From positions 1 to 21,174 of the IMG/VR virus record IMGVR_UViG_3300044675_008313: a stretch of DNA of 21,174 bases, one strand, 5' to 3'. A program made the translations under genes and the position numbers. Numbering within the stretch: position 1 is the stretch's first letter; each line of letters opens with the position of its first letter. Origin of the DNA: a virus. Under the pieces are notes generated by a model, which saw nothing but the letters and a program-made list of their open reading frames with translations, was not told the origin of the DNA and searched no databases. This document shows positions 10,352 to 21,002 of the stretch, piece after piece.

Positions 10352-10918
10352 ATGGCAACGAACAGCAATGCGAATGATTCTGGTGGCAAGCAACCAAGTG
10401 CACCAACAGTCGGTACGCCGACAGTTAACAATGTTGCTAACGACACGGCAGGAAATACTGCACAGACCGTTACTGTTCCGTTCACTGCTCCTGCCTACCT
10501 TGGAAAAACTGGTACTGTTTCTTCCTACACGGTAAGATCAAGTGGTGGTCATGTTGCAACGGGTGCATCTTCACCTTTGACTGTCACTGGTTTGACATCA
10601 AATACTGCTTATACGTTTACTGTGACTGCTACGAGCAGTAGTGGTCCTGTTAGTCCTGCTTCAGCAGCGAGTGCATCGGTAACACCGCCTTATTTCCCGC
10701 CTTATTTCCCACCATATTTTCCTCCGTACTTCCCTCCATTTTTCCCTCCTTTCTTCCCGCCGTATTTCCCGCCATACTTCCCGCCATACTTTCCGCCGTT
10801 TTTCCCACCTTTCTTCCCGCCGTTTTTCCCTCCATTCTTCCCTCCATTCTTTCCACCATTCTTTCCACCATTTTTCCCACCATTTTTCCCTCCGTTCTTC
10901 CCACCGCGATTTAAGTAA
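10352..10918 (+). CDS. FnIII-like domain plus (PPYF/PPFF)18 repeat protein
   Basis: A 188-residue protein. Residues 1-16 are a polar leader. Residues about 17-110 look like a fibronectin type III domain (VPFTAPAYLG..., SYTVRSSGG, then TGLTSNTAYTFTVTATSSSGP). Residues 112-183 are 18 uninterrupted tetrapeptides: PPYF in units 1-4 and 7-9, PPFF in units 5, 6 and 10-18. That gives 36 Pro, 29 Phe and 7 Tyr in 72 residues, ending in PPRFK. Pro-Pro pairs should favour an extended polyproline-II-like rod with an aromatic surface. It starts one base after the big fibre gene, so it is probably a virion fibre or tip component. The following genes are prolyl-hydroxylase-type oxygenases, making the repeat a candidate substrate (inference). 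The family is not otherwise recognised. Confidence 0.8.
   Translation: MATNSNANDSGGKQPSAPTVGTPTVNNVANDTAGNTAQTVTVPFTAPAYLGKTGTVSSYTVRSSGGHVATGASSPLTVTGLTSNTAYTFTVTATSSSGPVSPASAASASVTPPYFPPYFPPYFPPYFPPFFPPFFPPYFPPYFPPYFPPFFPPFFPPFFPPFFPPFFPPFFPPFFPPFFPPFFPPRFK
10685..10900 (+). repeat. 18 tandem 12-bp units coding PPYF/PPFF
   Basis: Eighteen in-frame 12-base units with no interruption. The protein repeat is perfect apart from the Y/F choice, but the DNA units vary at synonymous positions: Pro codons CCG, CCA and CCT are mixed and CCC is absent, and TTT/TTC and TAT/TAC alternate. Units 1-2 and 16-17 are identical neighbours. The complementary strand reads as a long Gly-Gly-Lys-Asn pattern, which is a shadow. 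Confidence 0.95.
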
Positions 10919-10931
10919 CAGAACCTTCTAG

Positions 10932-10949
10932 TACTGCTAGGATCTGTGT
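10932..10949 (+). promoter_or_regulatory. Candidate leaderless promoter for the oxygenase operon
   Basis: TAGGAT (10938-10943) lies exactly six bases before the GTG at 10950, and no Shine-Dalgarno sequence is present. GCTAGGAT is shared with the site before 15059. A small inverted repeat, TCTAG (10928-10932) and CTAGG (10937-10941), overlaps the hexamer and could be an operator. No -35 is evident. Confidence 0.4.
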
Positions 10950-11591
10950 GTGGAATTGGCGCACAAATCATTCGGTGAAGGTCCGTGGAACATAAAACCC
11001 GGTGCGTTTGGGACTGGCTCAGAAAACATCCACATAATTGAAAACTTTATTGATCCTGACGACGTATCAAAGATCATAGATTTTTCGCGGAACATTAAGC
11101 GTTGGCATAACGACCAATTAGAAGACACATTCAACGAAGAGGGTGTCTGCACATATGATGCCTCGTATTGGAACGACCGTCAATGTACTAGCACGATTCT
11201 CAAAGAATTAAACCCACAGATATTTGACATAATCAATTTCTACATTGACAAAATGGGAAAAACTATTGAAGGCATATTCGGTGTAGAAGTGAGTACTCGC
11301 CCACCATGCATAATCAGATGGTTTGGGGGGATAGAACAACAACCGCATGCGGACAAACAGTTGAACGATGGATCACCAAACCCCTTCCCTGATTACGACA
11401 TTAATTCACTTTTTTATTACAACGATGACTTTGAGGGTGGCGAACTTTACTATCCAGAGCATGACATTATTGTCAAACCCAAACCCGGTTTGGCTGTTCT
11501 GCACCCGGGAGACTTCTACTACATGCATGGAGTAAAGCCGGTTACGAGTGGTGAGCGTTACACCACACCAGCGTTTTATACGGTTGTCTGA
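10950..11591 (+). CDS. 2OG-Fe(II) oxygenase, prolyl-4-hydroxylase type (1)
   Basis: A 213-residue protein starting at GTG. It has the double-stranded beta-helix signature of P4H-type dioxygenases: iron ligands H133 and D135 (QPHADK), the conserved YYNDDFEGGELYYPE block (156-170), KPKPGLAVLHPGD (176-188), distal iron ligand H193 and 2OG-binding R203 in HGVKPVTSGERY. Such enzymes couple 2-oxoglutarate decarboxylation to hydroxylation of a peptide or other substrate, using Fe(II) and O2. The length is about that of a minimal P4H catalytic domain, without a signal peptide or peptide-binding domain. It is the first enzyme after the PPYF/PPFF gene, with its own leaderless-type promoter, and the next gene starts two bases after its stop. 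The substrate is unknown. Confidence 0.9.
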   Translation: MELAHKSFGEGPWNIKPGAFGTGSENIHIIENFIDPDDVSKIIDFSRNIKRWHNDQLEDTFNEEGVCTYDASYWNDRQCTSTILKELNPQIFDIINFYIDKMGKTIEGIFGVEVSTRPPCIIRWFGGIEQQPHADKQLNDGSPNPFPDYDINSLFYYNDDFEGGELYYPEHDIIVKPKPGLAVLHPGDFYYMHGVKPVTSGERYTTPAFYTVV

Positions 11592-11593
11592 TC

Positions 11594-12352
11594 ATGATCA
11601 AGCCAGATGATTTTGGCATTCCCCCACCAAGGGACAAATATCCTGTAATTGCGATATACAAAGATTTTATACCCGAAGATGATCATAAAAAACTCCTTGA
11701 TTATTTCAGCAACAACGACTCGCTATTTTGGTGGGGTCAATCGGACGAACCTTCGCCTAAAACAAACTCGCCAGTTCGCTACAAGTTAGTGAAACACAGC
11801 AAAGACGATTCTTTGAAGTACCTGAGAACCGTCATATTGAACGATGAGTATTTTGAAAAGTTAACTGCCTCAGAGGTAGATGAACCGTTCCCCGAGGGTT
11901 TGCAGAATAAAGTGGATTGGTGCATGGTTCTGCACACCACAGAGAATCAGGAGATTCTTGACATAATAAAACAAATTGACATTGCGGTTGAACAACAAAT
12001 ATACGATGTGTACGGGCAGAGGGTAGAGTGCACATTCCCACCTATGTTCACAAAGATAGATCAGGGGAGATCAATCCGCCTGCATTGCGATGGCTACGAT
12101 TTTGATGGAGATAGAAAGTACAAAGAATCAATCTGCCATTTCTCTTCTGTTTACTATATAAACGATGATTATGTTGGTGGAGAAAACTACACCCCTTATT
12201 TGGGTTTTTCATATAAGCCTCGCGCAAATTCGCTAATCCTAAACTCCACCCCATGGGACGAAGATATGGCTCACGAGGTTCTCCCTGTTACTTCGGGAAA
12301 AAGATTTGTGAGACAACACTTTTGGATATTAAAAAACGATGACAACGCCTAA
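11594..12352 (+). CDS. 2OG-Fe(II) oxygenase, prolyl-4-hydroxylase type (2)
   Basis: A 252-residue protein. Iron ligands are H164 and D166 (IRLHCDGY). The core block is SVYYINDDYVGGENYTPY (185-202), followed by KPRANSLIL, distal H227 and 2OG-binding R237 (AHEVLPVTSGKRF). The N-terminal 150 residues begin with the AIYKDFIPEDD element typical of the family, followed by a longer helical region than its neighbours have. It is most similar to the next gene: the two share the YYIN-D-VGGEN and PRANSL blocks, with Asn after Glu in place of the usual Leu. The next gene begins 14 bases before its stop. Substrate unknown. Confidence 0.9.
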   Translation: MIKPDDFGIPPPRDKYPVIAIYKDFIPEDDHKKLLDYFSNNDSLFWWGQSDEPSPKTNSPVRYKLVKHSKDDSLKYLRTVILNDEYFEKLTASEVDEPFPEGLQNKVDWCMVLHTTENQEILDIIKQIDIAVEQQIYDVYGQRVECTFPPMFTKIDQGRSIRLHCDGYDFDGDRKYKESICHFSSVYYINDDYVGGENYTPYLGFSYKPRANSLILNSTPWDEDMAHEVLPVTSGKRFVRQHFWILKNDDNA

Positions 12353-13010
12353 AAGATTTCCAGCGTTCTCATTATTCAAGGAATTCCTTGATGAGGCAAG
12401 TCATCAAACCATTCTTGAATATGTTAGTAATGATCGTGAATTTTCTGAATTAAAAGACTCTTTTTACGAAACACGGTTTGAGTTGATCAGTCATTCAAAA
12501 AAACCTGAATTGGTTTACCTTAGACCTTATGTTGCTGTTGATGGGAACATATCTGATTCGGATTATTTGCCCGAACCTTCTAGTTGGCTATATCTAAGGA
12601 ATTATCCTTCAGATATTGAAATTTTGCAGGCAATTGACAAGATTGATAGGCAGGTGCAAAACACGATTAAGGAACTATTTGGTCTTTCGGTCAAAGGTGT
12701 GTATGCCCCTTTTCTGCTTAAATTTTCCGACGGTTGCGGTCTTCGTTTACATACTGACACTTTTAAAGAGGACGAAATAACTGACTATAAAAATATATCT
12801 TACTTTTCAAGTACATACTATATAAATGAAGATTTTGTTGGTGGAGAAAATGTTTTCCCGTACTATGGTACAAAACTGCAACCTAGAGCGAATTCCCTTT
12901 ACCTGACAACAGACATCAATAACGAAGACATGATTCATGAAATAAAACCAGTTATATCAGGGGCGCGGTACACAAGACAGCAACTTTGGCAACTAGACTC
13001 GGAAGCATGA
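12339..13010 (+). CDS. 2OG-Fe(II) oxygenase, prolyl-4-hydroxylase type (3)
   Basis: A 223-residue protein and a close sister of the upstream gene. Iron ligands H138 and D140 (LRLHTDTF), core block STYYINEDFVGGENVFPYYG (158-177), LQPRANSLYL, distal H200 and 2OG-binding R210 (IHEIKPVISGARY). The N-terminus has the FSLFKEFLDEA element. The shared FSS-x-YYIN and PRANSL segments point to a tandem duplication within the phage lineage. The ATG at 12339 overlaps the upstream gene by 14 bases, and the stop overlaps the next start (ATGA). Function is inferred from complete active-site conservation; the substrate is not evident. Confidence 0.9.
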   Translation: MTTPKRFPAFSLFKEFLDEASHQTILEYVSNDREFSELKDSFYETRFELISHSKKPELVYLRPYVAVDGNISDSDYLPEPSSWLYLRNYPSDIEILQAIDKIDRQVQNTIKELFGLSVKGVYAPFLLKFSDGCGLRLHTDTFKEDEITDYKNISYFSSTYYINEDFVGGENVFPYYGTKLQPRANSLYLTTDINNEDMIHEIKPVISGARYTRQQLWQLDSEA

Positions 13011-13666
13011 AAAATCCTCTATTTTTAGGTGACCCAAAATTCGGAATTCTTCTATACAAGAACGAACTCCCTAAATCCCTACGCCTTCCCGAGCGGTTGG
13101 AAGAAACAATCGGGGATAGCAAATCTGCACCGTACATGTGGATGGAGGCGTTGGTTGGGTATAACCAAAAAATGCCTGAATACAGAGATTGCGTTGATTG
13201 CAAGATGGGAGAAATGCACATCAAGAACTGTCCGCCACAGTTTTCTGAACTTGTCAACATCTACAACGACACCAAAACCCCACTCAAAGAGTGCGTTGAG
13301 GATTACGAAAAGCGCTACAACATTCACCTTGGTTACATGGAAGCCATTAACTACATTCGCTATGGCACGAATCAGCACTTCCAAGTACACACCGACCACG
13401 GTTTTTCTTACACTTGCACGACATCATCGTGCATGTATTTGAACGATGACTATGAAGGTGGAGAATTATGGTTCCCTTATCTTGATTTAACATTCAAACC
13501 AGATTATGGGGACATTGTTCTGTTCCCGTCAACATACATTTATGCTCACGCCGCCAAACCAGTGCTTTCAGGCACAAAGTATTCAGCGGTAACCATGTTT
13601 GACTACAACGACAACAACCATGACTTGACCCGTCAGGCAAGTTATAGCCAAGAGAAAAATTACTAA
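13007..13666 (+). CDS. 2OG-Fe(II) oxygenase, prolyl-4-hydroxylase type (4)
   Basis: I chose the ATG at 13007, which forms an ATGA overlap with the upstream stop, over an in-frame TTG at 12986. The protein has 219 residues. Iron ligands H128 and D130 (FQVHTDHG), core SSCMYLNDDYEGGELWFPYLD (140-160), KPDYGDIVLFPS (164-175), distal H181, and K191 in the 2OG-binding position (AHAAKPVLSGTKY). Lysine is the residue used by animal and plant collagen-type P4Hs, while most enzymes in this cluster have Arg. The N-terminal half has several Cys residues (62, 65, 75, 96), unusual for the cluster. The stop overlaps the DUF6065-like gene by one base. Confidence 0.9.
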   Translation: MKNPLFLGDPKFGILLYKNELPKSLRLPERLEETIGDSKSAPYMWMEALVGYNQKMPEYRDCVDCKMGEMHIKNCPPQFSELVNIYNDTKTPLKECVEDYEKRYNIHLGYMEAINYIRYGTNQHFQVHTDHGFSYTCTTSSCMYLNDDYEGGELWFPYLDLTFKPDYGDIVLFPSTYIYAHAAKPVLSGTKYSAVTMFDYNDNNHDLTRQASYSQEKNY

Positions 13667-14385
13667 TGTCAAAAGTACATCTACTCAAAACCCAAACCAA
13701 TCCACCACAAATCGCTCAATCTAGGTTGAAGCGTGAGTGGATGGATAACACATACAATAAGCACGCCTACCAATGTCTCCCAATGACTTATGCAAATGTT
13801 TATGGTTGGGAGTTGCAACTTGAACAGGATGTTGTCGTTGAATGGAGCGGGCACAACGTCCCACCCAAGATAATCTCGGGTGACAAAATAGACCAAAAAA
13901 ATGGGGCTATTAAAGTAATTGCCCACTCAAGCATTATTGGCATGATTTCATTTTCAACTCAATATGTTTTCCGAACTGACCCCAATTATGACATTTGGAT
14001 AAGTGGCTCCCCAAACTATATGGTTGATGGGGCGTCACCGCTTTCAGCGATTATTCCAAGTTCGTGGTGGCCGGATGAGTTCCAAATGAACTGGATGATC
14101 AACAAAATTGATACCCCTGTTGTCTTTCCAGCAGGAATGCCGTTTATGTTTTTTACAGTTTTTGACAACAGGGTGTTGGAAGAAACAACCTTTGAGGTGT
14201 CTAGTCTTTGGGATGACGAAGAATTAGTGAAACAGCGCCAAAAGTATGGCGACATGAAGTCCAAGAATCAAATAGAGAATCCTTGGACTTGGACAAAGGG
14301 TATAAAAACTGGGCTTGATGCTGACGGGAATAGAATCGGACCGACTTTTACAGGAGTGCCGAAACTTACAGTTCCAGAGCGGTAG
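13666..14385 (+). CDS. DUF6065-like protein
   Basis: A 239-residue protein without the HxD...H oxygenase motif. Residues about 33-62 (HAYQCLPMTYANVYGWEL, then VVVEWSGHN) and the central VFPAGMPFMFFTVFD segment match my memory of the DUF6065 family. That family is of unknown biochemical function and often sits beside 2OG oxygenases or glycan-related genes in phages and bacteria. It is rich in Trp and aromatic residues and has no membrane span. It lies between two oxygenases with a one-base overlap upstream (TAATG) and a two-base gap downstream, so it is part of the operon. I cannot assign an activity; a partner or binding protein for the oxygenase system is one option. Confidence 0.6.
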   Translation: MSKVHLLKTQTNPPQIAQSRLKREWMDNTYNKHAYQCLPMTYANVYGWELQLEQDVVVEWSGHNVPPKIISGDKIDQKNGAIKVIAHSSIIGMISFSTQYVFRTDPNYDIWISGSPNYMVDGASPLSAIIPSSWWPDEFQMNWMINKIDTPVVFPAGMPFMFFTVFDNRVLEETTFEVSSLWDDEELVKQRQKYGDMKSKNQIENPWTWTKGIKTGLDADGNRIGPTFTGVPKLTVPER

Positions 14386-14387
14386 TC

Positions 14388-15005
14388 ATGTCAATGCTAG
14401 ACCACCGAGATTTGCTTAGAGCAAATGTCCATGTTGTTGATGGTTTTGCAACTCAAGACGAGTTGACCAAAATCCTTGACGAATGTCTCAAATTTGAGAA
14501 GTGGGATAACACTTGGGTTGAGAATGTAGACGGGTTGAGGGATGATGGAGTACCTGTCTGTGCGGAAAGTGTTGCAGTATCTTCTAGGGCTTTGTTTTTT
14601 GTATCCGCGAAAATCGGTCGCAGGCTTTCTTTCCTCTATCATCCATATCTGAGAAAATACCCGGCTGGTTCATACCTCAAAATGCACGCCGATTCTGAAG
14701 GTTTCTACGAGGACGGTGCAGACCCGTTGAGATACTACGACCCAAACAATCTGGTATCTGAAGTTTTGAACGAGTATTCATCAATACTGTATTTGAACGA
14801 TGATTATGAAGGTGGAGAACTTTATTTTGAAGAATTAGATGTATTGATCAAGCCAAAATCAAACCAATTAGTATTTTTCCCTAGCGGATGCGAGTTCAGG
14901 CATGAAGTGAAACCTGTATTAGACGGGGATAGATACACCCTTGCTTCTTTCTATTCCACAGATAAATTAATTGGGTTGCACGGCAAAATAAGGGAGTTAA
15001 TCTAA
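14388..15005 (+). CDS. 2OG-Fe(II) oxygenase, prolyl-4-hydroxylase type (5)
   Basis: A 205-residue protein. Iron ligands H100 and D102 (LKMHADSE), core SSILYLNDDYEGGELYFEELD (131-151), KPKSNQLVFFPSG (156-168), distal H172 and 2OG-binding R182 (RHEVKPVLDGDRY). The N-terminus has the VHVVDGFATQDEL element. The core block is closest to oxygenase 4, separated from it only by the DUF6065-like gene. Two start codons are possible (14388 or 14394); the first lies two bases after the upstream stop. It is the last gene before a 53-base gap with a hairpin and a new promoter candidate, so it may end the first transcription unit. Confidence 0.9.
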   Translation: MSMLDHRDLLRANVHVVDGFATQDELTKILDECLKFEKWDNTWVENVDGLRDDGVPVCAESVAVSSRALFFVSAKIGRRLSFLYHPYLRKYPAGSYLKMHADSEGFYEDGADPLRYYDPNNLVSEVLNEYSSILYLNDDYEGGELYFEELDVLIKPKSNQLVFFPSGCEFRHEVKPVLDGDRYTLASFYSTDKLIGLHGKIRELI

Positions 15006-15023
15006 ACCCGACAGAAGGGGTTT
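15004..15023 (+). terminator. Weak hairpin, possible terminator
   Basis: AAACCC (15004-15009) pairs with GGGTTT (15018-15023) around an eight-base loop. The hairpin overlaps the stop codon of the upstream gene. The following bases are C-rich, not a U-tract, so intrinsic termination is doubtful. Confidence 0.25.
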
Positions 15024-15040
15024 CCCAATATCACCCTTAT

Positions 15041-15058
15041 TTGGGCTAGGATAATTTC
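15041..15058 (+). promoter_or_regulatory. Candidate leaderless promoter
   Basis: TAGGAT (15047-15052) is exactly six bases before the ATG at 15059, within GCTAGGAT, the same octamer as before 10950. There is no Shine-Dalgarno sequence. This would start a second transcription unit of the enzyme cluster. Confidence 0.45.
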
Positions 15059-15268
15059 ATGGTTATCGGAGAGTTCAACTACGAAAAAGCGAAGTCCAAA
15101 GCAAAGATCTTCTTGGAAGAGTCAATATTTGTTCTTAGTAAAATAATGGATGTTGACAGTTCCTCTGTTGATGCGGATTCACCGAACCCATACGATGTTC
15201 GTGAACCTCTTTATATAAGTTTTGAGTGCTTGAAGAAAGAAATTTCAGCACTCAAAAAGTTGGGTTAA
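15059..15268 (+). CDS. Small helical protein of unknown function
   Basis: A 69-residue protein, probably two helices: residues 8-31 (basic then hydrophobic, SKAKIFLEESIFVLSKIM) and 50-68 (LYISFECLKKEISALKKLG), separated by an acidic Ser/Asp/Pro-rich loop. There is no signal peptide. It follows a leaderless-type promoter and is four bases from the next gene. I do not recognise it. It resembles the many small regulatory or accessory proteins of phages, but nothing in the sequence fixes a function. Confidence 0.5.
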   Translation: MVIGEFNYEKAKSKAKIFLEESIFVLSKIMDVDSSSVDADSPNPYDVREPLYISFECLKKEISALKKLG

Positions 15269-15272
15269 TCTC

Positions 15273-15455
15273 ATGGATCCCAAGAAGGAAAAAGATGAGC
15301 CAACTAGGTTTGGGGAAGCCGACACAGATTTGCCGAAATTTGATGTTGGGGTTATCTATTTTGAAAGCGAAACAGGCAGGTGGCTGTCCGATGGCGAGTG
15401 GGTAACAGACTGCCACACCATTGATTACACGGTTGAAGGTAGTTCTGATGAATGA
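15273..15455 (+). CDS. Small acidic protein of unknown function
   Basis: A 60-residue, strongly acidic protein. The centre (VGVIYFESETGRWLSDGEWV, residues about 26-45) could be a small beta sheet and vaguely recalls the GD..Y....G.W element of the fibre proteins, but too weakly to assign. It has one Cys and no membrane span. The gene lies four bases after the previous one and overlaps the next start by eight bases (ATGAATGA). Function unknown. Confidence 0.45.
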   Translation: MDPKKEKDEPTRFGEADTDLPKFDVGVIYFESETGRWLSDGEWVTDCHTIDYTVEGSSDE

Positions 15456-15741
15456 AACATATGATGCCTCATCTGATTTCTCCTATGCATCCGAGAGTAT
15501 CGCCTGCGTTCTTTACACGCTTGGCTACGAACCATCAGAGTTTGGGAGTGTCTCGTTTGATGAAGTGATTGAACGAATTCGTTCTGTTTATGCCTATAAA
15601 CCTTCGCACCAGATAAACGCTCGTGTAGAGAACTATGCGGTATATGAATATCTGAAAAGTTTAAACATACTGCTCACTCGTGTTTTTAGGCGTTCGTATT
15701 TTGATCTACAGATATCTTCGTATGAGTTGTCAAATGTCTGA
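15448..15741 (+). CDS. Small protein of unknown function
   Basis: I placed the start at the ATG at 15448, giving an eight-base ATGAATGA overlap with the upstream stop; an in-frame TTG at 15421 would extend it by nine residues. The 97-residue product appears mostly helical: IACVLYTLGYEPSEF, VSFDEVIERIRSVYA and AVYEYLKSLNILLTRVFRR, with a basic aromatic end. It has no known motif. The next gene overlaps its stop in the same eight-base arrangement. Function unknown. Confidence 0.5.
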   Translation: MNETYDASSDFSYASESIACVLYTLGYEPSEFGSVSFDEVIERIRSVYAYKPSHQINARVENYAVYEYLKSLNILLTRVFRRSYFDLQISSYELSNV

Positions 15742-16483
15742 AAATAAGCGTTATGAGTTGGATCAGTTATTTGATCTAAGCAATTTCACGGATATGCCAT
15801 TGGCTGATTTTGCTGACGCTTGCATAGATCAGGATTGCGAGCAGTCAGTTCTTGTTGGGGAATACATGTTCAATACCGTTGGTGTTGACCGTAGGAACAT
15901 CGCAACTGGTGGTGCAAGTGATTTTGATTACGTCATCCATCAGCCCCACGCAAAATTGCATAAGGGGTACTCAAGCCCGCAATGGCTTTCTTTGTCCTTA
16001 GTTTTTGCGATGTTTGATGTGAAGAGAATGAAAAGTGTTTTGTCTATATCTGGATATTTGGACAGATTTAAATATGATGCTTTGGTCAATCAGTATGGTG
16101 CAGAACTTTCAATACTCAACTCAAAGAGGCTTTTGTATTATGAGCGCTTTGCAAAAGGTGTTTCCAGTATCCTCCCTGATGTTCCATACAAAATGGTTAC
16201 AAGACAAGAGGTTGAATTAGATGAAGACACTAAATACGATCTAATTTTAGGTTGGTCTTCGGATATGGAAAACCCATTTCTTAGCCCATCAACATATGTT
16301 GACAGACTGAACAGCGGTGGGGTAATGCTGATTCAGAACAGTTCAGACTCTTCGTTTTTGTACCACAACAAAACAGTTGTCAGTCCTGCGTGGGAATGGC
16401 ATTACGAACTCAAACATAACGAGTGGTGCAATGTTTACCATATTCCAGTTTTCTACGGTCTTACGATAGTGGTGAAAAATTAA
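15734..16483 (+). CDS. Possible SAM-methyltransferase-like protein
   Basis: A 249-residue protein with no oxygenase motif. Start at ATG 15734 (eight-base overlap ATGTCTGA with the upstream stop); ATG 15722 is an alternative. Residues about 85-201 suggest a Rossmann-like order: a VLSISGYLDRF strand-loop where motif I would be but without GxGxG, a helix-strand pair ending SILN, then KYDLILGWSS (167-176) and YVDRLNSGGVMLIQN (188-202), the pattern of motifs IV-VI in class I methyltransferases. The C-terminal region is rich in Trp, His and Tyr. The degenerate motif I makes SAM binding uncertain. It could be a methyltransferase, a diverged non-catalytic relative, or unrelated. It lies one base before the next oxygenase. 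Confidence 0.45.
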   Translation: MSENKRYELDQLFDLSNFTDMPLADFADACIDQDCEQSVLVGEYMFNTVGVDRRNIATGGASDFDYVIHQPHAKLHKGYSSPQWLSLSLVFAMFDVKRMKSVLSISGYLDRFKYDALVNQYGAELSILNSKRLLYYERFAKGVSSILPDVPYKMVTRQEVELDEDTKYDLILGWSSDMENPFLSPSTYVDRLNSGGVMLIQNSSDSSFLYHNKTVVSPAWEWHYELKHNEWCNVYHIPVFYGLTIVVKN

Positions 16484-16484
16484 C

Positions 16485-17450
16485 ATGTTTATACAAGACG
16501 ATTTCTTTGATGAGGCAACGCTGAACGCTATTTTTAGCGACGAGTCTTTCTTCCCTGCGTCTATGGGGGGAGGGGAGAAGGTTGCATCTGAACCAAACAT
16601 GTACAACGATCCAAATGGTTCAGTTTTTTCACCCTATATGTTTTGGGATGGATGGTGGAAAAGTCCGATGGATACTCTCAAAAAGAAACTCATAAAAAGG
16701 ATTTTTGAGGGAAGAATTAACACTAACGATGTAGTCGGGTTTGAATATTGGACGCGGACATACCAAGAGGGTCAATACATACAACCACATGTTGATGCCG
16801 ATACCGCAAGATACATCCACGACAAGTCATTAGGTACGCCGGTTCTCGGCTCAGTTTGGTGGGGAGTTGAGAACGAAGAGCCAAGTTTCTTTGAAATTTA
16901 CCCACATCCACTAAAGAGAGATTCAATTGGTTCTTTGGAAAAAAGTTTCATAGATCAGATCTTGGACAGCAGTCCTGTTGAGAGTCGCGAAAGAATAAAA
17001 TACAAAAGCAACCGCTTGATCATTTTTGATGCTGGTCACGAACTCCACGGAACCACACCATCCTCATCTGGAATAAAACAATCCTTAATCGTGAATGTTT
17101 GGGGTAAGGAATGTCCCCCTCTTGGATTGCTAAAAGGTGGCTTCCACTATGAAACTGGATCTCCCGTTTTCGGCAAGTCTTACCGATTGACAGTTTCAAC
17201 ACCTTTAGGAAATGAGACCGTGTCTGTGGTTTTTGATACGGATACAAAAGCCAAAATTGAGCAAGGAAAGTACTCTACGGATATTCAATACTCCTTAGAG
17301 GAAGGAAAGTTCATCTCTGATTACAAAGTTTCAACACCCATGATCGCAAATGTATCTTTGAACCTTGTTGAAGATAATGGGAATGTGAGCGGTTATATGA
17401 AGATCAACGATTACTCTACGCTTAATGTCAAGGGAGTTATTTCAGTATGA
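16485..17450 (+). CDS. 2OG-Fe(II) oxygenase with extra C-terminal domain (6)
   Basis: A 321-residue protein, the longest and most divergent oxygenase here. Iron ligands H102 and D104 (IQPHVDADT), then a core in which the usual LNDDYxGGEL block is replaced by GSVWWGVENEEPSFFEIYPH (122-141). YKSNRLIIFDAG (173-184) precedes distal H188, with K198 in the 2OG position (LHGTTPSSSGIKQS), giving the same 10-residue spacing as the others. Residues about 207-321 are an added, beta-rich region (YRLTVSTPLGNETVSVVFDTDT and following) that none of the neighbours have; it may bind substrate. The gene follows the methyltransferase-like gene by one base and overlaps the next by four. Oxygenase assignment is fairly secure; the substrate is unknown. 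Confidence 0.8.
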   Translation: MFIQDDFFDEATLNAIFSDESFFPASMGGGEKVASEPNMYNDPNGSVFSPYMFWDGWWKSPMDTLKKKLIKRIFEGRINTNDVVGFEYWTRTYQEGQYIQPHVDADTARYIHDKSLGTPVLGSVWWGVENEEPSFFEIYPHPLKRDSIGSLEKSFIDQILDSSPVESRERIKYKSNRLIIFDAGHELHGTTPSSSGIKQSLIVNVWGKECPPLGLLKGGFHYETGSPVFGKSYRLTVSTPLGNETVSVVFDTDTKAKIEQGKYSTDIQYSLEEGKFISDYKVSTPMIANVSLNLVEDNGNVSGYMKINDYSTLNVKGVISV

Positions 17451-18040
17451 TAATTGATCACCCGACAACTGGCGGCATTCACATATTGGACGATTTCATT
17501 GATACGGAGACGGCAACAATTCTTGAAAAAATGCTGATTGCTCTCCCTAAGAAAGTTCAAACAGAACTTAGCGATGACGGAGTTAACTTTTATTCGTCCA
17601 AGAAGGATGAAAGGGGTGAGGAATACAATCAGCCCTCATTAGTTGTAGAAAATACAGGGCAACTTGACGAATTTTTTGTTCCAATAATTGAGAAAATTCA
17701 TAGAAGTATTGAGTTTATTTGGGATCGCAAGGTTGGATTAGAAAAAAATTTTAATGTTTGCGGATACCAAAAAGGTGAAAAGTTACGTTCTCACTACGAT
17801 GGTCTAAAACCTGATCTCGCAACGCCAGCAGGATATGAAAGTCGCGATGTGAGTTCTGTCCTTTATCTGAATAGCGGATTTACTGGTGGAACTTTGCACT
17901 TTGATAATTTGGGGGTAAGCGTTAATCCTAGAAGGGGGATGCTTGCCTTGTTCCCATCTTCGGAGGTTTACACCCATCATGTTGATGCCGTTGAATCAGG
18001 AGTCAGACTTTTTGTGACACAGTTTTGGTGCCTTCAATGA
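17447..18040 (+). CDS. 2OG-Fe(II) oxygenase, prolyl-4-hydroxylase type (7)
   Basis: A 197-residue protein. N-terminal HILDDFIDTETA element, iron ligands H116 and D118 (LRSHYDGL), core SSVLYLNSGFTGGTLHFDNLG (136-156), NPRRGMLALFPSS (160-172), distal H177 and 2OG-binding R187 (THHVDAVESGVRLF). Two adjacent His (177-178) occur at the distal site; alignment with the next gene (THYVNKITSGMK) marks the first as the ligand. It is closest to oxygenase 8, sharing the IW/LWDR, NF.V.GY..GE, YTH/FTH and FWC/LWC-x-Q C-terminal features. The stop overlaps the next start by four bases. Substrate unknown. Confidence 0.9.
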   Translation: MIIDHPTTGGIHILDDFIDTETATILEKMLIALPKKVQTELSDDGVNFYSSKKDERGEEYNQPSLVVENTGQLDEFFVPIIEKIHRSIEFIWDRKVGLEKNFNVCGYQKGEKLRSHYDGLKPDLATPAGYESRDVSSVLYLNSGFTGGTLHFDNLGVSVNPRRGMLALFPSSEVYTHHVDAVESGVRLFVTQFWCLQ

Positions 18041-18639
18041 ATAGGGCGCATTTTGATTCCGTTCATATCATTGACGGTTTCATTGATGAAATTTCGTTGG
18101 ACTATATTGCAAAAATGATTGCAAACTCCGAATATGGGGACAGTACGGCAAAACCACAAGGAGAAGATGGATACAGAGATTCATCTCATGGCGAAAACAT
18201 CCTTGATTCAATAGCAAGGTATTCACCAGCAAGCGTGATTCTCAAACCAAGCGAGGATTATCCAATCAGACCAGCGATTGACCCAATAATGCTAAAAATA
18301 CATAGCACCATCCAAAAGTTGTGGGATAGGGAATGTTTCTTGGAAACAAATTACTCTGTGTTGGGGTACAAGGTCGGTGAGTCACTCAAAGCACATCACG
18401 ATGCGATCTATAATCTAAAAACCAATACTGGCTACCCGAGGTGCGATATTTCGGCTGTTCTTTATCTAAATGATGACTACTCTGGCGGTGAGTTGAGTTT
18501 CGTTAAACAAAAAATCAAGATCAAACCCAAAGCAGGAAGCGTCGTGATATTTCCATCAACAGAAAAATTTACCCATTATGTGAACAAGATTACTTCTGGT
18601 ATGAAATTTTTTGTTCCTAGTTTGTGGTGTTTCCAATGA
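18037..18639 (+). CDS. 2OG-Fe(II) oxygenase, prolyl-4-hydroxylase type (8)
   Basis: I chose ATG 18037 (ATGA overlap with the upstream stop) over TTG 18025. The 200-residue protein has iron ligands H120 and D122 (LKAHHDAI), core SAVLYLNDDYSGGELSFVKQ (139-158), KPKAGSVVIFPST (163-175), distal H180, and K190 in the 2OG position (THYVNKITSGMKFF). It is paired by sequence with oxygenase 7, and both end with a Trp-Cys-x-Gln tail, pointing to tandem duplication followed by an Arg/Lys switch at the cofactor site. The next gene, a glutathione-peroxidase-like protein, starts within its stop. Confidence 0.9.
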   Translation: MNRAHFDSVHIIDGFIDEISLDYIAKMIANSEYGDSTAKPQGEDGYRDSSHGENILDSIARYSPASVILKPSEDYPIRPAIDPIMLKIHSTIQKLWDRECFLETNYSVLGYKVGESLKAHHDAIYNLKTNTGYPRCDISAVLYLNDDYSGGELSFVKQKIKIKPKAGSVVIFPSTEKFTHYVNKITSGMKFFVPSLWCFQ

Positions 18640-19253
18640 ACTCGGCTTTTGATATCAAAATTGCTTCGGCTGATGGACTGACAGATGATGTTTTATCCAC
18701 CATTCGTGGCAGAACATGCATGATTGTCAACATCGCAACTAAAGCAAAATACGAGCCAAAAACAAGTGCAATATGGTCTTATGCTAGAACCGCTAGACAG
18801 TTATGGGAACTTCAAACGGTTCATGATATGTATGAGGATTTTTCTGTTGTTGGAGTTCCATGCAACCAATTTGGGTCACAGGATCCAGCAACAAATAAAG
18901 AAATAGCGTCATTTGTTAAAAAAGCATACCCGTGGGTAACTTTTCCGATCACGGAAAAAGTTGAAGTAAACGGGGAGAATGAGCACCCGTTGTTTTCTTT
19001 TTTGAAGGGAACAGCAAAAAGGGTTGCTAGTGACACGAGGGCAGATAATTCAGCAGAAGCATCTCATGGTCATAATGTCGCCAATCAGGCTCTTCACCGA
19101 GTCCCTCATAACTATGAAAAGTTTATTTTAGACACATCTGGTAGGGTTATACGACGGTTCAGTTGGGGAGAGTTTCCTCTAGCATTGGAGAGACTAACTG
19201 ACCAAAGTTCTGGAACAATATTGGAAGCGTTAAAGGAAATTTTTGGTGAATGA
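18636..19253 (+). CDS. Glutathione-peroxidase-fold protein lacking the peroxidatic Cys
   Basis: A 205-residue protein. ATG 18636 overlaps the upstream stop (ATGA); GTG 18624 is an alternative. The family landmarks are clear: MIVNIATKAKY (29-39), DFSVVGVPCNQFGSQDP (68-84), KVEVNGENEHPLFSFLK (108-124), and NYEKFILDTSGRVIRRF (159-175). In active enzymes the first motif reads NVAS-x-(Cys/Sec)-Gly; here the catalytic position is Ala37 and the following Gly is Lys. The catalytic Gln (Q78) and Asn (N159) remain, but the Trp of the tetrad is His158. An insertion relative to typical members lies near 40-60. It is therefore probably not a peroxidase by the normal mechanism; a binding or regulatory role, or use of Cys28 or Cys76, is possible. 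It sits inside the oxygenase operon. Confidence 0.8.
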   Translation: MNSAFDIKIASADGLTDDVLSTIRGRTCMIVNIATKAKYEPKTSAIWSYARTARQLWELQTVHDMYEDFSVVGVPCNQFGSQDPATNKEIASFVKKAYPWVTFPITEKVEVNGENEHPLFSFLKGTAKRVASDTRADNSAEASHGHNVANQALHRVPHNYEKFILDTSGRVIRRFSWGEFPLALERLTDQSSGTILEALKEIFGE

Positions 19254-20118
19254 TAAAAAACCACTTGAGCCAAGACATCTTGGTGGCGGAACAGTACTTT
19301 TTGAGAACGCGATAACTGTCCCTCAGAACGACTTGATCTCATATCTTGAAAATGAAAAAGAGTTATGGCGAAAGGAAAACTTCACCGTAATTTACGATGA
19401 CAACGGTGAGCCTATCCACGCCATCAACAAAGGTGGATTCATATACGGTCTTGATTCATACAAATCTGCACCAGTCAGAATACAGAACCTAACCCACCCA
19501 TTCTTCAAGGAATGCGACGACCGTGTATATGACGCACTGCTTTCCTATATTGAGATGTTCCCTGCAATTCTGCAATGTTTATGGTGGAAATCTGGTGGGC
19601 ATGTTCTTTGCTATGACGAAGGCGCGAGTCTTGGGTTTCATTCAGACAACGATGTCAACTACCGATATGGGGCGATGCCCCAACTAGATCACGCAACAAG
19701 GAATGTCGTTTCGGCACTTGTTTATTTCAACTCATGTACTGATGATGGGAGTGAATGCGATTATGGCTTTAGTGGTGGACACATGTCTATCCCGTACTTT
19801 GATATTGACATTGTCCCTCATACTGGCTCAATCCTTCTAATGCCAGCAAATTATCTAGGCGCTCATCAAATACATGAAATAACCAAGGGTTCCCGCTATT
19901 CGTACCTTCTTTGGTTTGCCCAAGGTGTTCCCGCCCCAGAACACGGCGTTAACCCTGTTGCCCCTGATGGTGATTACCATTCTGGTGGTCAATGGTGGCT
20001 TGAGACATTAGTTGAGGATTACGAAAAATACATAAATGAAAAGTACCCGCTTGGGTCTAGTAGACCAGATAATCTTACTTTATTCAAAAGTAGAGCGAAA
20101 GACCATTACACAAAATGA
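19246..20118 (+). CDS. 2OG-Fe(II) oxygenase, longer subfamily (9)
   Basis: I start this gene at GTG 19246, which gives the eight-base overlap GTGAATGA with the upstream stop and has AAGGA about eight bases upstream; TTG 19243 is the alternative. The 290-residue product begins with HLGGGTVLFENAI, a signature of this subfamily. It has a KGGFIYG element near 62, iron ligands H132 and D134 (LGFHSDND), SALVYFNSC and the core FSGGHMSIPYFD (175-186), HTGSILLMPAN, distal H207 and 2OG-binding R217 (AHQIHEITKGSRY). A C-terminal extension (about 225-290) is rich in Pro, Trp and Tyr. It is paired with the next gene. Substrate unknown. Confidence 0.85.
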   Translation: MNDKKPLEPRHLGGGTVLFENAITVPQNDLISYLENEKELWRKENFTVIYDDNGEPIHAINKGGFIYGLDSYKSAPVRIQNLTHPFFKECDDRVYDALLSYIEMFPAILQCLWWKSGGHVLCYDEGASLGFHSDNDVNYRYGAMPQLDHATRNVVSALVYFNSCTDDGSECDYGFSGGHMSIPYFDIDIVPHTGSILLMPANYLGAHQIHEITKGSRYSYLLWFAQGVPAPEHGVNPVAPDGDYHSGGQWWLETLVEDYEKYINEKYPLGSSRPDNLTLFKSRAKDHYTK

Positions 20119-21002
20119 TTTTTAACAAGATTGACGGCAAAGACCTAGGTGGTGGAGTAGTCCTATTCAGCAATGCGTTTAGTATTGACTGGGAATCAAC
20201 TAGGGAATTATTTGAGGAATTTGTTTCTGCCGAACGTAAATCAATGTACACAGAGGGAATAAACCCCGAAACTGGCGAAGCGTGCTATGTAAACCGTAGT
20301 GGTTACATTTTTGACAAAGAAGGCGTTGACATGATGCCTCGGCGAGCAGCAAATGCGCATCAAGATAAGCGAAGTGAAGTAATTGAATTATTCAACTTTT
20401 TGGAATCTGCACGCGACAAATGCTTACTTGAGTATTTGACACGGTTCCCGCTTGCTTACAAAAATATTTGGTGGAAGGTTAAAGGGCACATAGTCTCCTA
20501 CTCTGTTGGGAGGGGTGGCTTATTTCTTGGAACACATTCCGACTCAAGCGTTGACTATATGTACGGGATTGATCATCCTAAAGAGCAACTACCTGTAAAA
20601 AATACTTTGTCTGTCGTAATGTATGTCAATGATTGTGTTGATATCGCAGATGTTTCGGAAGAAACATTCAGTGGCGGGGAGCACTCTTTTGATTACCTCG
20701 GTATTACTTACTCCCCTCGCAGAGGAGATATTCTGATGTTCCCATCTAATTTCATTGCCTCGCATGAGGTCAAGCCTGTAACTGGTGGAACTAGATACAG
20801 TTATCTTGGTTGGTATTCGCATGGTTCACCAAACCCCGAACTAAACGAAACGATAGTAGACCCGAATACGGATCCCGAAGAGGCGCAAAGGGCTACAAAT
20901 ATTTATATGCCAAGTCTTCGTGATGATTTCCGCAGTTACCTAAAACAGAATGTTCCCGACGAATCTCATCTTGGCTTTACTCTTACTTCACGGATGAACT
21001 GA
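20115..21002 (+). CDS. 2OG-Fe(II) oxygenase, longer subfamily (10)
   Basis: A 295-residue sister of oxygenase 9: DLGGGVVLFSNAF (10-22), RSGYIFD (61-67), IWWKVKGHIVSYSVG, iron ligands H141 and D143 (LGTHSDSS), SVVMYVNDC and FSGGEHSFDYLG (185-196), SPRRGDILMFPSN (200-212), distal H217 and 2OG-binding R227 (SHEVKPVTGGTRY), plus a similar C-terminal extension ending in a LRDDFRSYLKQN helix. It starts inside the upstream stop (ATGA), and its own stop overlaps the next start by one base (TGATG). All active-site residues are present; the substrate is unknown. Confidence 0.88.
   Translation: MIFNKIDGKDLGGGVVLFSNAFSIDWESTRELFEEFVSAERKSMYTEGINPETGEACYVNRSGYIFDKEGVDMMPRRAANAHQDKRSEVIELFNFLESARDKCLLEYLTRFPLAYKNIWWKVKGHIVSYSVGRGGLFLGTHSDSSVDYMYGIDHPKEQLPVKNTLSVVMYVNDCVDIADVSEETFSGGEHSFDYLGITYSPRRGDILMFPSNFIASHEVKPVTGGTRYSYLGWYSHGSPNPELNETIVDPNTDPEEAQRATNIYMPSLRDDFRSYLKQNVPDESHLGFTLTSRMN

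Follow-up and report, generated by a model that had tools for sequence, protein, structure and literature searches.

The 205-amino-acid product of one gene in the 21,174-nucleotide stretch of viral DNA analyzed here (the window; Table 1), which we call GPX-A, belongs to the glutathione peroxidase (GPx) family by fold and homology, yet it fails the tests that define the enzyme. The peroxidatic cysteine, the resolving cysteine, and the tetrad tryptophan are all replaced, and the gene lies in an operon of 2-oxoglutarate (2OG)-Fe(II) oxygenases. The explanation we favor, to which we give about an even chance of being correct, is that GPX-A has ceased to act as a thiol peroxidase and is a conserved, putative binding partner of the co-encoded 2OG oxygenases.

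GPX-A matches Pfam GSHPx (PF00255) at 78.9 bits (2.5e-22; cut-off, 27 bits), its only strong family match, and scores below the cut-offs of the NCBIfam equivalogs PRK10606 (79 against 270 bits) and gpx7 (69 against 207 bits). A search of the PDB with GPX-A returned GPx structures and nothing else. An AlphaFold model built with an alignment of 49 phage relatives (mean pLDDT 82, pTM 0.82; low confidence in the loop at about 126-157) aligned to poplar Gpx5 (2p5q) with a Z score of 18.7 and an rmsd of 2.4 over 151 residues, and human GPX7, GPX4, and GPX8 were nearly as good structural matches. From the PDB matches and these alignments, we conclude that the fold is that of GPx; together with the Pfam match, this makes GPX-A a member of the family. 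In the model, helix alpha1 spans residues 45-65 and is lengthened by a GPX-A-specific insert of 13 residues (43-55), which was found in 0 of 80 cellular GPx proteins and is also absent from the GPX-B and GPX-C paralogues described below. We considered whether conservation is highest in the inserts of GPX-A and ruled this out, as their entropy is average compared with the rest of the protein. The gene overlaps both neighbors, as the preliminary description of this DNA had claimed: by 4 bases on the upstream side (ATG at 18636; preceding stop ending at 18639) and by 8 bases on the downstream side (GTG of the next gene at 19246; GPX-A stop ending at 19253).

TABLE 1 Features of the window and GPx-like genes of related contigs (coordinates without a contig prefix refer to the window)
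Feature	Coordinates	Strand	Basis or remark
fn3-domain fiber-like protein with C-terminal (PP[FY]F)n; candidate hydroxylase substrate	10352..10918	+	
Four 2OG-type genes, together	10950..13666	+	clustering; HxD...H...R/K motifs
2OG-type gene 1 of these	10950-11591	+	
2OG-type gene 2	11594-12352	+	
2OG-type gene 3	12339-13010	+	
2OG-type gene 4	12986-13666	+	
DUF6065 protein	13666..14385	+	PF19541, 154 bits
2OG-Fe(II) oxygenase	14388..15005	+	PF13640, 49.3 bits
Conserved neighbor, cluster c12 (21/50 neighborhoods)	15421-15741		no Pfam match
Conserved neighbor, cluster c9 (29/50 neighborhoods)	15680-16483		no Pfam match
2OG-type protein, HVD...H...K, with C-terminal barrel domain (~17148-17447)	16485..17450	+	motif; phmmer 4.3e-12 (barrel)
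2OG-Fe(II) oxygenase	17447..18040	+	PF13640, 47.1 bits
2OG-Fe(II) oxygenase directly upstream of GPX-A	18037..18639	+	PF13640, 51.8 bits; HHD...H...K; ORF listed from TTG at 18025
GPX-A, 205-aa GPx-fold protein without peroxidatic and resolving Cys	18636..19253	+	ORF, Pfam, alignment, model
Codon 37, peroxidatic position (Ala here; C/A/T/F/L/Y/S in relatives)	18744..18746	+	alignment
GPX-A-specific 13-aa insert, lengthens helix alpha1	18762..18800	+	alignment, model
2OG-Fe(II) oxygenase directly downstream of GPX-A	19246..20118	+	PF13640, 32.9 bits; HSD...H...R
2OG-Fe(II) oxygenase	20115..21002	+	PF13640, 42.8 bits
GPX-B	L041:9065-9688		
GPX-B	L044:70-672		
GPX-B	L067:4519-5199		
GPX-B	L084:5798-6424		
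GPX-B	L093:3873-4529		
GPX-C	L022:1485-2351	-	
GPX-C	L025:13413-14474		
GPX-C	L053:1695-2591	-	

At the catalytic site, NIATK-A37-K38-Y39-E40-P41 aligns onto the cellular N(V/T)ASKCGFTP, and the register at residue 37 is anchored by N32, K36, Y39, and P41 as well as by relatives that have NIASKCGYEPKCS here. The replacement of the peroxidatic Cys by Ala within a GPx fold, first proposed from the letters of the sequence, is therefore borne out by the Pfam match, the alignment register, and the fold of the model; the alignment likewise agrees with the proposed state of the tetrad, in which Gln78 and Asn159 are retained and His158 takes the place of Trp. Trp occurs at this position in 0 of 61 GPX-A family members, compared with 80 of 80 cellular enzymes. 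The resolving Cys of the EIxxFC helix, characteristic of two-Cys, thioredoxin-dependent GPx, is Val94 in GPX-A and is Cys in none of the 61. The cellular set was collected by patterns excluding the residue-37 site, and Cys37, Gln78, the resolving Cys, Trp, and Asn are all kept in 80/80. The change from Trp to His also occurs in relatives that bear Cys37 and is thus not tied to loss of the cysteine. A substitute for Cys37 within GPX-A was ruled out: the only cysteines of the protein are Cys28, which is variable within the family, and Cys76, the ordinary cysteine of the GPx motif PCNQF (present in 77/80 cellular enzymes), and the window's clade has no cysteine in the active-site loop. Of the new role originally suggested, peroxide sensing through another Cys is accordingly not supported, whereas binding to the oxygenases would be in keeping with the data; what stands is a GPx fold maintained without use of the peroxidatic Cys in a 2OG-Fe(II) oxygenase operon.

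To follow residue 37 across the family, we used 61 distinct GPX-A sequences, namely that of the window and IMG/VR relatives, of which IMG/VR holds several hundred. The residue is Ala in 19, Cys in 13, Thr in 12, Phe in 7, Leu in 6, Tyr in 3, and Ser in 1, leaving 48/61 without Cys, and the Cys count is biased upward because the scan pattern that collected these sequences contained Cys37; a scan on other motifs, blind to the site, found Cys in 5/58 distinct proteins and another residue in 53/58. By entropy, residue 37 is the 28th most variable of 205, and it is surrounded by invariant residues (N32, Y39, P41, S44, W47, S48, and R51). The window protein has Ala37 and its nearest relative Thr37. 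All 7 distinct proteins of the window's clade (81 to 100% identity, from different contigs) lack Cys37, so that no close homologue within the clade has an intact Cys; it is carried by homologues with about 50% identity. As for phage homologues with the same substitution, a point raised in the preliminary description, the absence of Cys37 holds throughout the clade, but the residue varies and there is no fixed Ala. Columns 37 and 43 were left out when the maximum-likelihood tree was built. Along this tree, Cys37 appears or disappears at least 6 times, each change being forced by branches with good support, and the identity of the residue changes at least 17 times; swaps separate close proteins (Ser/Cys at 95% identity; Phe/Cys or Tyr/Phe at 88 to 92%). 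The tree count does not distinguish repeated loss from regain, and regain of Cys37 is possible, since the basal GPX-A branches (with a cellular-GPx root) are without Cys.

Values of dN/dS for GPX-A are mostly 0.03 to 0.10, indicating strong purifying selection, and are rough, with silent sites close to saturation in many of the pairs. On a plain reading, a low dN/dS despite a variable Cys site means that the protein is needed and its peroxidatic Cys is not. Several catalytic residues have been lost, as would be expected of a decaying hitchhiker, a pseudogene, or an assembly error; given this selection, an intact frame with overlapping starts, and the presence of the gene in many contigs, such an origin is hardly credible. 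A pseudogene or sequencing error is in fact refuted by the selection data and the many contigs, and a single sequencing or assembly variant is excluded by the 7 distinct Cys-less clade proteins from different contigs.

Phage GPx is read in the virome literature as a defense against ROS (PMC6802176), and GPX1 has been counted among viral auxiliary genes (PMC12724203); GPX-A might accordingly be taken for an ordinary peroxide-detoxifying auxiliary metabolic gene, the more so as both Pfam and BFVD name it GPx and some relatives keep Cys37. We consider this very improbable, as the window protein is without Cys at 37, 43, and 94, Trp is missing family-wide, and most of the family is without Cys37. 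The reactive Cys is absent in about 9/10 of the distinct sequences from the site-blind scan, and the host-protection reading is therefore probably wrong for the GPX-A family.

The main rival to a partner role is relocated thiol chemistry, in which the reactive Cys has moved from position 37 to Cys43, GPX-A is a thiol-redox or disulfide-linked protein, and the window's clade is a secondary derivative that lost Cys43. This cysteine, six residues past 37, is present in 54/61 family sequences and was lost once on the tree, in the window's clade only, where it is Thr (window) or Ile; the model puts residue 43 just ahead of helix 45-65, the usual setting of the reactive thiol in this fold. However, the 7 distinct proteins of that clade (support 100/100, long branch) remain under purifying selection with Thr or Ile at 43, and no resolving Cys or Trp occurs anywhere in the family, so we regard relocation as unlikely. 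The family-wide Cys43 and its loss in the window's clade had been missed by the preliminary description, as had the 13-residue insert and the loss of the resolving Cys. GPX-A could also be a non-covalent ligand binder or sensor, its Gln78/Asn159/Cys76 pocket binding peroxide, a hydroxylated product, or a small molecule and signaling to the oxygenases. Gln78, Asn77, and Cys76 are each invariant (61/61), and Asn159 is present in 50/61; but Cys76 and Asn77 are general residues of the GPx fold, in many relatives the pocket would be occupied by a bulky Phe, Tyr, or Leu at 37, and the protein has no signaling domain, all of which makes this reading quite improbable.

We return to the partner role and to the gene neighborhoods. 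The window carries tail-fiber-like genes followed by co-directional genes from 10352 to 21002. PF13640 oxygenases were present in 49/49 family records examined, with 2 to 12 in each, compared with 3/49 control contigs, which were fetched by an arbitrary 14-mer and not matched for habitat. A 2OG-type gene lies directly downstream of GPX-A in 44 of the 49 neighborhoods having a downstream gene (downstream clusters c7 and oxy13 were confirmed by Pfam and c11 by its HND...H motif), and the window's clade has a 2OG oxygenase gene immediately upstream as well. The oxygenases of the window keep HxD...H and the 2-oxoglutarate-binding Arg/Lys (by visual inspection for 14388-15005, 18037-18639, and 20115-21002), and those around GPX-A therefore appear to be active, judging from these motifs. 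Because GPX-A is mostly without the reactive Cys and constantly found among their genes, it probably helps the oxygenases rather than destroying peroxide.

Other genes recur in these islands. The DUF6065 protein is a near-constant member (44/50 neighborhoods), and in 30/50 neighborhoods the gene directly upstream of GPX-A encodes either a protein of about 100 amino acids, c5, or an oxygenase ending in a c5 domain. A model of c5 (L041:4539-4844) shows a beta barrel of eight strands (pLDDT 89), resembling minimal eight-stranded barrels, including Cap15 (Z 12.7, 14% identity). A c5-related domain also ends the window's oxygenase-like protein at 16485-17450, which has no Pfam match and whose L041 orthologue scores 24.5 bits against PF13640, below the cut-off. 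For the T4-like major capsid protein gp23 (PF07068), there was no match in 14 records and none in the control either.

In several of the clusters there is another GPx-like gene, GPX-B or GPX-C, in which the peroxidatic Cys is kept and Gln and Trp are lost, the reverse of the GPX-A pattern. One contig (L022) has GPX-C together with a GPX-A about 82% identical to that of the window. In another (L075:2332-3759), GPX-B is fused behind a domain that, by eye, resembles a nucleotidyltransferase. An 81-kb virus contig (L410) encodes a canonical 162-amino-acid GPx with Cys, Gln, Trp, and Asn intact, as well as PP[FY]F repeats and oxygenases.

A candidate substrate adjoins the oxygenases, namely the fiber-like protein that ends in (PP[FY]F)n; such repeats occur in 20 other sequences among the 50 neighborhoods, and proline repeats beside prolyl-hydroxylase-like enzymes suggest a pairing of enzyme and substrate. 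A scan for the PP[FY]F repeat alone gave more than 120 stretches, and fn3-bearing fiber-like proteins with this ending were seen in many aquatic phages (L017, L020, L023, L097, L115, and others; L290-L369). Among records found by the PP[FY]F pattern only, PF13640 was present in 42/49 and a GPx match in 14/49; with GPx in so few, GPX-A is not required for all 2OG/PP[FY]F systems.

If GPX-A is a partner of the oxygenases, the GPx fold would have been retained for protein binding, and it would assemble with, stabilize, or present substrate to at least one co-encoded prolyl-hydroxylase-like 2OG oxygenase, whose likely targets would be the phage's own fiber proteins, e.g., the (PP[FY]F)n tail. GPX-A may then work like PDI, the thioredoxin-fold beta subunit of collagen prolyl 4-hydroxylase (P4H). 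Members of the family with Cys43 may contact the partner through it, in principle by PDI-like disulfides, and in the window's clade binding would do without any thiol at position 43. A stronger version, in which GPX-A is an obligate, non-catalytic, Cys-less subunit of a phage prolyl-hydroxylase complex, with the (PP[FY]F)n tails of the phage's own fibers being hydroxylated, and hence an independent, GPx-derived viral counterpart of PDI in P4H, seems to us distinctly unlikely. The prolyl hydroxylase of a chlorovirus reportedly acts without a partner, which counts against a partner role. In collagen P4H, the catalytic subunit depends on PDI for its solubility and activity, and the contact includes intersubunit disulfides formed by the active-site cysteines of PDI (PMC9676403); the GPX-A of the window cannot form such disulfides, which speaks against the parallel. 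Should the partner role be correct, the natural series from Cys37 plus Cys43, through Cys43 only, to neither would lend itself to a study of the passage from thiol enzyme to structural partner. With a candidate PP[FY]F substrate adjoining, the family also makes the 2OG-Fe(II) oxygenase islands of aquatic phages, so far unexplained, accessible to testing.

In the open literature searched, there was no report of the GPX-A family in phages, of a system for hydroxylating PP[FY]F repeats, of a GPx family with a freely variable catalytic Cys, or of a tie between GPx and phage 2OG islands. Searched by tblastn, INPHARED phage records gave hits of 26 to 33% at best, mostly BtuE-like or in unannotated records, and on these values no cultured phage member was identified. 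An entry of BFVD, A0A6J7WVP6 (BtuE glutathione peroxidase of an uncultured Caudovirales phage), belongs to the GPX-A family at 51% identity, its GPx name coming from automatic annotation only. With the GPx family at large (BtuE type, Gpx5, GPX4/7/8), GPX-A shares the fold, the motif frame N-I-x-x-K-x-G-Y-x-P, and the motifs PCNQF, VNGxNxH, and NYEKF; it differs in having no peroxidatic Cys, resolving Cys, or Trp and in its 13-residue insert in helix alpha1 and long loop at about 126-156, which is of low confidence in the model. Ciliates have GPx isoforms with an incomplete X/Q/W/N tetrad, Cys-less ones included (PMC7409322), and these resemble GPX-A as GPx genes without the catalytic Cys. Unlike GPX-A, they are eukaryotic, scattered isoforms that keep the Trp and lie in no oxygenase operon, with no evidence for a freely variable site. 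For prolyl hydroxylation encoded by a virus, a chlorovirus provides an earlier example (Eriksson 1999, as cited in PMC9301287). Like the system proposed here, that one pairs a virus-encoded P4H with proline-rich viral peptides as substrates; it differs in belonging to an algal virus, and we know of no GPx partner for it. PDI in collagen P4H is a parallel in way of working, and by analogy only, as a member of the thioredoxin superfamily that pairs with a 2OG oxygenase of P4H type; it is built of four domains and makes its contact through CGHC cysteines, and its homology with GPX-A goes no further than the fold.
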